Part shown: piece after piece, positions 14,836-42,829 of the stretch
Numbering within the stretch: position 1 is the stretch's first letter
How the letters are laid out: each line of letters begins with the position of its first letter
NCBI RefSeq assembly: GCF_037996645.1
Contig: NZ_JBBMXV010000003.1
Coordinates: forward strand, 62,001-126,000
Origin: Halalkalicoccus tibetensis
Lineage (GTDB): Archaea; Halobacteriota; Halobacteria; Halobacteriales; Halalkalicoccaceae
Reading direction: 5' to 3'
Length of the DNA: 64,000 nt
Translations under genes and position numbers: made by a program
The notes under the pieces: model-generated
What the model saw: only the letters and a program-made list of their open reading frames with translations
Database searches by the model: none
Told to the model about the DNA's origin: nothing

Positions 14836-15561
14836 TTACGTCGTCCGGAACGCGCGATCGCCCGCGTCGCCCAGCCCGGGGACGATGAAGCCGTCGTCGT
14901 TCAGGCGGTCGTCGATCGAGACGGTGAGCAGCTCGGCCTCGGGGAACTGCTCGCCGACCCTGACCAGCCCGTCGGGCGCCGAGACCGCCGAGAGGACGAA
15001 CAGGTGTTCGGGCCCGGGGGCGCCGTCGGAGCGTTGCTCCGACGAGCCTCCGGTCGTTTCACTCCCCGAGACGTTGTCGAGGATCCGGTCGAGCACGGCA
15101 CACATCGTCGAGCCGGTCGCGAGCATCGGGTCCGCGACGATCACGGTGTCGTCCTCGCGGATCTCGGGCAGCTTCACGTAGTCGATCGTGATCGGGAACT
15201 CGCCCTCGTCCATGCCGGCCTCCTCGTCGCGACCCGCCGAGATGACGCCCTGTTTCGCCCGCGGAAACGCCTTCAGAAGCCCCTCGACGAACGGCGTCGC
15301 CGCCCGCAGCACGTTGATGATCACGACGTCGTCGAGACCCTTGACGCGCTCGCCCATCGTCGTCTCCAGGGGCGTCTCGATCTCGACGTACTCGGTCTCC
15401 ATGCTGCCGTCGATGATCTCGTAGCCACAGATCCGCCCGAGCTTCACGAGCCCCTTGCGGAAGCCGACCTGTTCGGTCTCGACGTCACGGAGCCGGGAGA
15501 GGGTGTCGCGCGCCAGGGCGTGGGTGATGACGTGTGCGGTGTCGCGGTCCTCGATGGTCAT
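14836..15561 (-). CDS. upp: Uracil phosphoribosyltransferase
   Basis: Salvages uracil with PRPP to give UMP. At 241 aa it is longer than the roughly 210-225 aa usual in the family. The PRPP loop [11 protein letters not shown] and the uracil-binding C-terminus [15 protein letters not shown] are intact. The extra length is an insertion of about 20 residues near 163-182 (SGSETTGG, then [11 protein letters not shown]) in a surface loop before the strand [12 protein letters not shown]. At DNA level the insert holds a 9-bp-stem palindrome described separately. It is preceded by a divergent SRPBCC gene. Confidence 0.95.
15018..15075 (-). repeat. In-frame palindromic insert in upp
   Basis: The insert centres on 15024-15044, CGTCGGAGC-GTT-GCTCCGACG, a perfect 9-bp stem with a 3-nt loop. 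On the coding strand it encodes SSEQRSDG. The same peptide pattern (SE-x-RSDG) and the same hairpin core occur twice in the linker of the ammonium transporter fusion 27 kb away, although the proteins are unrelated. That points to a shared DNA element inserted in frame rather than protein homology. Confidence 0.65.
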
Positions 15562-40999: not shown

Positions 41000-42829
41000 G
41001 TGATCGATCCGGTGATGCTGCAGGTCGAGACGGCCGACCTGGAGGCGCTCGCGACGGGGATGAACCTGATGTGGGCGCTGACGGTCACCTTCCTGATCTT
41101 CTTCATGCACGCCGGCTTCGCGATGCTCGAGGCGGGGCAGGTCCGCTCGAAGAACGTCGCGAACCAGCTCACGAAGAACATGCTGACCTGGGCGGTCGGC
41201 ATCGGCGTCTTCTTCGTGGTCGGGATGGGGATCTCGAACAACGTCGGTTCCCTGCTGGGCGGGGGCGAATCGAGCCCCCTGACCATGTTCGGCGAGGGCT
41301 CGTTTGACTGGGCGATGTGGCTCTTCAGCGCGGTGTTCGCGATGACCGCCGCCACGATCGTCTCCGGTGCGGTGGCGGGTCGCGCGAAGCTCCGCGCGTA
41401 CGTCACCTACACGTTCGTGCTCGCGGCAGTGATCTACCCGGTCGTCGCCGGCATGGTCTGGTACGCCCCCGGCGGCGAGCCGATCCTCGCGGCGTTCGGC
41501 TTCGCCGACTTCGCGGGCGGGATGGTCGTCCACGGCGTCGGCGGCGTCGCCGGCCTCACGGCGGCCTGGATCATCGGCGCGCGCATGGACCGGTACAACG
41601 AGGACGGCTCGGTGAACATCATCCCCGGCCACTCGCTGACCTTTGCAGTTCTCGGGACGCTGATCCTCTGTTTCGGCTGGTTCGGGTTCAACGTCGGGAC
41701 GGCCGCGACGGTGGTCGACCCGGCGACGCTCGAGCTCGCCGACTTCGACTACGTCGGCAGCGTCGCGATGGTCACCGCGCTGGGCATGGGGCTGGGCGCG
41801 ATCGGCGCGTCGGTCGCCTCGCTCGGCATGAACGGCAAGGTCGACACGCTCTACGTCGCGAACGGCATGCTCGCCGGCCTCGTCGGCGTGACCGGCCCGA
41901 CGGATCTCATCACGCCGATGGGCGCGATCGCGATCGGCTTCATCGCCAGCGCGCAGCTCCCGCTGGTCTTCCGGTTCGTCGAACAGACGCTCAAGATCGA
42001 CGACGTCTGTGCGGTCTTCCCGGTCCACGGCAGCGCCGGGATGCTCGGGCTGATCCTCTACCCGCTGTGGTCGATCGAGGGCACCGCCATCGGCGGTGGC
42101 GTCATCGCGGGCGGGATCCTCTCGATCGAGGCGGGCGCGTTCGTCCCGCAGATCGTCGGCGTTGCCGTCATCACCGTCTGGACCGTCGTCGCCACCGGCG
42201 CGGTCTGGGGCGCGTTCAAGGCGGTCGGCCAGGCGCGGGTCACCCCCGAACACGAGCGTGACGGGCTCGACCTCGCCGAACACGGCGTCGACACCTACCC
42301 CGAGTTCGGCAAGCCCGACGTCGCGGCCGCGACCGACGGCGGCCACGAGGTCGTTCGGACAGACGGCGGTGAGCGTTCCGAAGGACAGCGAGATACGTCA
42401 GAACCTCGTTCTGATGGTAGTGAGCGTTCCGAAGGATCGCGATCCTCGTCGGAGCTTCGGTCCGACGGCGGTGAGGCGATCGACGGCGAGATCAAGATGG
42501 TCAGCGCCATCATCCGGCCCGATCGGCTGGGTGAGGTCAAACGCGAGCTCGCGGCCGCCGGCGCCCCCTCGCTGACGGTGACGAACGTCTCGGGTCGGGG
42601 CTCGCAGCCCGCGAAGAAGGGCCAGTGGCGTGGCGAGGAGTACACCGTCGACCTCCACCAGAAGGTGAAGGTCGAGTGCGTCGTCGCCGACGCACCCCTC
42701 GAGGACGTGATCGGCGCGATCCGCGAGGGCGCGAACACCGGCGAGCCCGGCGACGGCAAGATCTTCGTGACCCCCGTCGAGGACGCGCTGCAGGTCCGCA
42801 CCGGCAAGCGCGGCCCCGACGCGGTCTGA
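41000..42829 (+). CDS. Ammonium transporter fused to a P-II (GlnK) domain
   Basis: A 609-residue fusion. Residues 1 to about 430 are an Amt/Rh channel with eleven helices, the pore histidines in VHGVGG and VHGSAG, and the signature FGWFGFNVG. Residues 498-609 are a complete P-II protein: [14 protein letters not shown], the T-loop with Tyr548 in EEYTVDL, and [22 protein letters not shown] normally is a separate protein that plugs Amt when ATP/2-oxoglutarate is low; here it is tethered. The linker (about 440-497) is made of 17-residue repeats. GTG at 41000 is the start since a stop lies at 40991. Confidence 0.93.
42362..42475 (+). repeat. 51-bp tandem repeats with 7-3-7 hairpins in the Amt-GlnK linker
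   Basis: Units begin at 42362, 42413 and (first 12 bases only) 42464. They encode [34 protein letters not shown] and DGGE. Each full unit ends with a hairpin: TCAGAAC-CTC-GTTCTGA (42398-42414) and TCGGAGC-TTC-GGTCCGA (42449-42465, one mismatch). Two A-T pairs of the first correspond to G-C positions in the second. The core equals the palindrome inserted in upp. Most codon differences between units are synonymous. Confidence 0.8.

Follow-up and report, generated by a model that had tools for sequence, protein, structure and literature searches.

The upp gene of Halalkalicoccus tibetensis contains a short palindrome, CGTCGGAGC-GTT-GCTCCGACG, whose core recurs in two hairpins, TCAGAAC-CTC-GTTCTGA and TCGGAGC-TTC-GGTCCGA, in the linker of an amt-glnK fusion gene of the same window (the whole stretch of 64,000 nucleotides that was analysed), and this raises the question whether a small palindromic element has inserted itself, in frame, into unrelated genes of a haloarchaeon, as an earlier note on this DNA had proposed by analogy with Rickettsia. 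The three hairpins are present (Table 1) and translate to SEQRSDG, SEPRSDG and SELRSDG, so that the common motif SE-x-RSDG is borne out, and the host proteins are indeed unrelated, being assigned by Pfam to UPRTase in one case and to Ammonium_transp plus P-II in the other.

Table 1. Host genes, element copies and associated features in the window.
Feature	Positions	Strand	Evidence
upp (uracil phosphoribosyltransferase), carrying the insert	14836..15561	-	Pfam UPRTase 2.5e-43
In-frame insert in upp, 51 bp, encoding 17 residues; borders uncertain by ~3 bp	15022..15072	-	
Hairpin 2 of the upp copy, CGTCGGAGC-AAC-GCTCCGACG on the - strand	15024..15044	-	sequence and pattern match
amt-glnK fusion, ammonium transporter with fused P-II domain, host of the tandem insert	41000..42829	+	Pfam Ammonium_transp 3.2e-92, P-II 3.6e-26
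GACGGCGGT, DGG codon run resembling the target, immediately 5' of unit 1	42362..42370	+	
amt-glnK linker, element unit 1, 51 bp, 17 aa	42371..42421	+	R1 E 3.1e-14 in genome (C3:104362-104420)
Unit 1, hairpin 1 (imperfect)	42373-42389	+	
Unit 1, hairpin 2	42398-42414	+	
amt-glnK linker, element unit 2, 51 bp, 17 aa	42422..42472	+	R1 match 42413-42471, E 4.7e-19 (window)
Unit 2, hairpin 1	42424-42440	+	
Unit 2, hairpin 2	42449-42465	+	

The upp palindrome lies within an in-frame insert: the gene is 723 bp long, exactly 51 bp (17 codons) longer than its orthologues of ~672 bp, those of the same genus included, and the insert is absent from all of the ~40 matched relatives and the 80 named haloarchaea compared (overlapping sets), the closest named relative being Halalkalicoccus paucihalophilus. 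An ancient feature of uracil phosphoribosyltransferases, shared by distant genera, is thus ruled out, as the insert is present in none of the orthologues examined. Alignments with the solved structures of this family (PDB 1vst, 1o5o) cover the stretches flanking the insert but do not run through it. In an AlphaFold2 model of modest reliability (shallow alignment; mean pLDDT 60.7), the insert (residues 167-181) forms a coil with pLDDT <50 between the helix 150-163 and the strand 186-191.

A BLAST comparison of the amt linker against all 15 contigs of the genome (3.6 Mb) brought up dispersed relatives of one 51-bp unit. An alignment of seven copies, with upp excluded, yielded two hairpins with 7-bp stems and 3-nt loops, GATCCTCG between them and a GACGGYGG frame, and from it the covariance model R1 was derived. 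The unit, ~51 bp in length, accordingly consists of hairpin 1 (7-bp stem, 3-nt loop), the linker GATCCTCG, hairpin 2 (7-3-7) and the 3' end GACGGYGG, and its peptide, approximately (DGG)ERSxGSRSSSExRSDGG, adds about 17 residues to the proteins that contain it. The palindromes encoding SE-x-RSDG in upp and amt-glnK are therefore real parts of an insert, as had been proposed, although they make up only the right (3') halves of a two-hairpin element. The model trained without upp recovers the upp copy (15021-15067 on the minus strand; E 7.3e-6 in the window, 4e-4 in the genome search). Within the window, amt and upp alone stand clear, with the next match at E 0.007; genome-wide, 11 copies at unrelated sites, that of upp included, fall below E 1e-3 (9e-18 to 4e-4).

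The frequency of the motif also speaks to coincidence, that is, to GC-rich short palindromes that by chance encode a common hydrophilic motif. In the window, the count of the palindrome pattern of the earlier note is only mildly unusual (6 matches with at most one mismatch versus 2.2 expected, a number reached by 4 of 100 shuffles), but the same pattern occurs at 7 sites per strand in the genome as compared to 0 for a reversed control, and the E-values down to 1e-18, the 51-bp difference from all upp orthologues and the covariation of the stems rule out a chance palindrome, the probability of which we consider negligible. A known RNA family was likewise set aside, given that no Rfam covariance model matched in the window at the gathering threshold.

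The stems of the element are conserved in their pairing rather than in their sequence. Among 105 copies, 236 stem cells are doubly changed versus 67 expected from shuffles, all 14 stem pairs show double changes, 89% of the stem cells pair, and the signal collapses when the partner column is slid by 1-3 positions; the alignment was fitted to R1 and so favours its structure, although most copies are gapless. The signal is seen separately in coding copies (37 rows, 62 versus 15 expected) and in noncoding copies (18 rows, 46 versus 14). In addition, a subset of copies reads the linker GATCCTCG in a different frame (RDPRR), with both ends still DGG/SDGG, which points to a nucleic acid, not a peptide, as the conserved object. 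Such drifting stems with retained pairing point to a structure-reading process that acts on coding DNA.

Comparison of filled and empty orthologues, which the earlier note had suggested as a way to define the borders of insertion, shows for Amt-GlnK, CopA, SRAP and proline dehydrogenase that the insertion, usually of +51 bp, adjoins a run of DGG codons (GACGGYGG); the upp site lacks the motif, and no GACGG is found at this position in the upp orthologues. The Amt-GlnK linker is empty in most relatives, congeners included, where it reads ...RTDGG... (20+ orthologues compared), and the DGG that precedes unit 1 is present in the orthologues with an empty linker. The element follows this DGG in G000 (twice), G001, G053, G031 (45 bp) and G049 (57 bp), with G053 versus G016/G032 and G001 versus G003/G004/G006 as filled and empty pairs. 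CopA carries inserts in four genomes and two regions, before MVGDGVND in G000 and in the loop after TDVV in G005, G006 and G052, each beside a DGG or GG run. In SRAP, +51 bp is found in G016 and G063 but no insert in G053 or G062, with no clear extra duplication; proline dehydrogenase (PRODH), by contrast, is filled in G053/G062, in a short form without hairpin 1, and empty in the rest of the genus. Two copies of GACGGYGG flank the inserts in Amt, CopA and SRAP, an arrangement compatible with either target duplication or site preference. Some shared sites, such as that of SRAP in G016/G063, were probably inherited, so that the copies are not all independent events. As a separate observation, the copA gene of G001 (L189) harbors, at the G000 insert site, a remnant-like sequence of ~20 bp (GDEGADGG), as if the element had lost its middle.

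Some copies are noncoding and reside between genes or upstream of tRNA genes. Those at L077:1501-1573 (own genome, C1:64324-64396), L120, L121, L125, L183, L187 and L182 abut the 5' ends of tRNA-Gly (CCC or TCC) genes and of one tRNA-Thr gene, and in these tRNA-linked copies the right end is made up of the initial ~10 nt of the tRNA, which are repeated at the left end. The 5' arm of hairpin 2 in the tRNA-Gly and tRNA-Thr copies is complementary to the right end, i.e., the tRNA start, which hints, from a few related sites, at target choice by base pairing.

Within coding sequences, as called from a codon-usage score rather than from an annotation, 34 of the 36 copies, upp among them, have the same orientation and frame, and a second calculation agrees; the two exceptions, L113 and L134, are an apparently orthologous pair in reverse orientation. 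Since only 49 of the 126 GACGGYGG sites in coding sequence (39%) are in the frame of the element, the target site alone is insufficient to account for this bias. With each of ~20 host proteins counted once, the bias has a binomial probability of ~1e-7. An in-frame length is found in 36 of the 41 copies with one coding flank, compared to 9 of the 25 with no coding flank. The host proteins belong to 19 distinct, unrelated Pfam families, and the parallel that the earlier note drew with the palindromic elements of Rickettsia, which also sit in frame in unrelated genes, holds in this respect.

We think it probable that each of these sequences is a copy of a small mobile element that is non-autonomous and recognised through its hairpins, and that the insertions retained in genes have been filtered for frame. 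The element would insert, in a transposition-like manner, next to GACGGYGG-like sites, giving a product flanked by two such sequences; in genes, these sites would mostly be DGG codon runs in flexible linkers or surface loops. Mobilisation would most likely be the work of an enzyme that recognises both folded hairpins together with the constant linker between them, a structure-specific recognition suggested by the free change of the stem sequences under retained pairing. In genes, the insertions that persist would have the single orientation and frame in which the element encodes a hydrophilic linker of 17 residues, the other outcomes presumably having been purged by purifying selection. A search for the mobilising gene found none: PF01797 has 0 matches in the genome of H. 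tibetensis itself and in most copy-rich genomes (it is absent from G002, G014, G025, G034, G041, G045 and G047), nor was excision or de novo insertion observed. A broader reading, in which the copies represent an order-wide archaeal class of mobile elements, with two hairpins and a fixed linker recognised by structure, pairing of the 5' arm of hairpin 2 with the target, an undescribed enzyme and the generation of 17-residue halophilic linkers, is tentative and, on the whole, doubtful.

Three other explanations deserve to be weighed. The DGG-rich linkers of haloarchaeal proteins might grow longer through slippage at, or recombination between, direct repeats of GACGGYGG, such that the peptide is selected and the palindromes simply follow from the choice of codons. 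The presence of GACGGYGG at both ends, the DGG runs already in place in empty linkers, the nearly uniform frame of the coding copies and the tandem units in amt are all compatible with such a process; nevertheless, it is distinctly unlikely given that the stems covary in noncoding as well as coding copies, that copies are found upstream of tRNA genes and between genes, that the linker may be read as RDPRR between ends that are still DGG/SDGG, and that one site (L113/L134) holds the reverse orientation. We regard as very unlikely that the hairpin pair is a regulatory RNA or DNA structure (acting in mRNA stability, translation pausing or protein binding) that was repeatedly recruited and is not selfish: the hosts have no common pathway, the presence of the insert in the same gene differs between congeners, and no Rfam family matches in the window, even if the conservation of stems at shared sites, the fixed orientation relative to the gene and the location of some copies just upstream of tRNA-Gly would fit.

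A non-autonomous element of the IS200/IS605 type, moved as a single strand by a Y1 transposase (TnpA) acting in trans, with the hairpins as left-end and right-end hairpins and GACGG as the cleavage and target site, comes to mind because of the two subterminal hairpins and the target pentamer that lies at the left flank and is repeated at the right end. The SRAP insertion, which shows no clear extra duplication, agrees with this mechanism, and so do the tRNA-linked copies, whose hairpin 2 has a 5' arm (GGCGC) that matches the altered target (GCGCC). Still, this origin appears unlikely in view of the distribution of PF01797 described above and because no complete insertion sequence with R1-like ends was detected at TnpA genes; an R1 scan of 30 TnpA loci gave weak matches only, to different two-hairpin sequences. 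A resident IS200/605 transposase or RAYT as the mover is, for the same absence of PF01797, unsupported.

Judging from the R1 matches, the element occurs through much of the order Halobacteriales. At E<=0.1, 49 of 59 genomes of the order and 26 of 30 genera match, where many of the weaker matches may be due to chance and dozens are below 1e-8. In a sample of 120 genomes from the phylum, matches at E<=0.001 come from 6 genomes, all of them Halobacteriales, a control that may be imperfect given the uncontrolled G+C content of the non-matching members. The presence is patchy: in some haloarchaeal genera (f5/g6), the best E is at least 0.002. Copies within a genome are hardly closer to each other than to copies from other families (similarity 0.70 versus 0.69), with no sign of a recent within-genome burst, which suggests that the activity of the element is slow, old or shared via gene exchange. 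A strict exact pattern gave no match in viral contigs, weak evidence against viral carriage.

In its behavior the element resembles the Rickettsia palindromic elements (RPE), for which we know of no dedicated transposase. As described in PMC10969869 (citing Ogata 2000 and 2002), RPE are small bacterial palindromic repeats of ~150 bp that are found in frame in many unrelated genes, encode a conserved peptide and also occur in intergenic regions. The archaeal element similarly occupies unrelated, intact genes in frame, with empty orthologues for comparison; unlike RPE, it is ~51 bp long, belongs to Halobacteriales, consists of two separate 7-3-7 hairpins, prefers GACGGYGG and encodes a peptide of Ser, Arg, Asp and Gly. 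Length and host thus place it outside the RPE, and the likeness would be one of mode of action, with no homology of sequence claimed. Bacterial REP families tagged GTAG or CGTC are short, often paired hairpins whose intragenic units add 20-30 aa, and the CGTC families have no known transposase (PMC3733652, which reports on bacterial phyla and in which both text matches to 'archaea' are in the reference list). CGTC is present at the 5' foot of hairpin 2 of the archaeal element, too; however, the REP tags are described as unpaired whereas in the majority of copies the archaeal CGTC is paired to GACG (columns 66-68 with 106-108), the consensus has no GTAG tag, and no RAYT (Y1) transposase accompanies the element in the genomes lacking PF01797. 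Elements derived from IS200/IS605 (PATE-like MITEs) have hairpins near both ends and a short target motif, with little or no target duplication. The archaeal element shares the hairpins, may share the reliance on a short target motif, and differs in having no Y1 transposase in its own or most copy-rich genomes and no autonomous partner found. Classical MITEs are longer and possess terminal inverted repeats with target-site duplication. The element described here, by contrast, has direct GACGGYGG-like ends, two internal hairpins and an in-frame location in genes. MITEs have been reported in Halobacterium and Haloquadratum (named in PMC10969869), and these, like the present element, are small non-autonomous repeats of haloarchaea. 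A search of the open-access literature, with subscription papers outside its scope, revealed no description of an archaeal counterpart; the supposition that it is new is likely, not proven. In-frame insertion of palindromes into working genes has been presented as peculiar to Rickettsia and to a few REP families of bacteria. An independent, order-wide archaeal case in genetically tractable hosts makes testable the movement of such elements, the retention of their hairpins and their possible contribution of new protein segments.

Several additional observations concern variants of the unit. In genus g24, the usual form is a noncoding variety of 58 bp whose hairpin 2 is shorter, seen in G034 (L173/L174, L161, L164) and G045 (L169/L170, L172); it includes identical copies, and the flanks that they share appear to be longer. 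Another left end that recurs, TCCGGAARTGAG (SSGSE), is found in L110, L119, L129, L143, L154 and at the left end of the upp insert; together with a neighbouring 'RRTSEDE..SSGSE' module, it suggests that haloarchaeal linkers contain mosaics assembled from several repeat units. Close to the 3' side of IS605-type tnpA/tnpB units lie two-hairpin sequences (L392:3166-3208, L407:3285-3327, L396:62-101, L410:1516-1560) that might be right ends of the IS or additional inserts. Finally, IS200/605 tnpA genes of other haloarchaea themselves contain in-frame two-hairpin inserts (L408:1953-1995, L409:1860-1902 and L399:1823-1863, all on the minus strand) with the same anatomy, 7-3-7, short linker and 7-3-7, and a different sequence (FVWC..PK[SSKSKICVPRGISDPAQ]YRH), and the tnpA gene of L408 appears to hold two of these close together.
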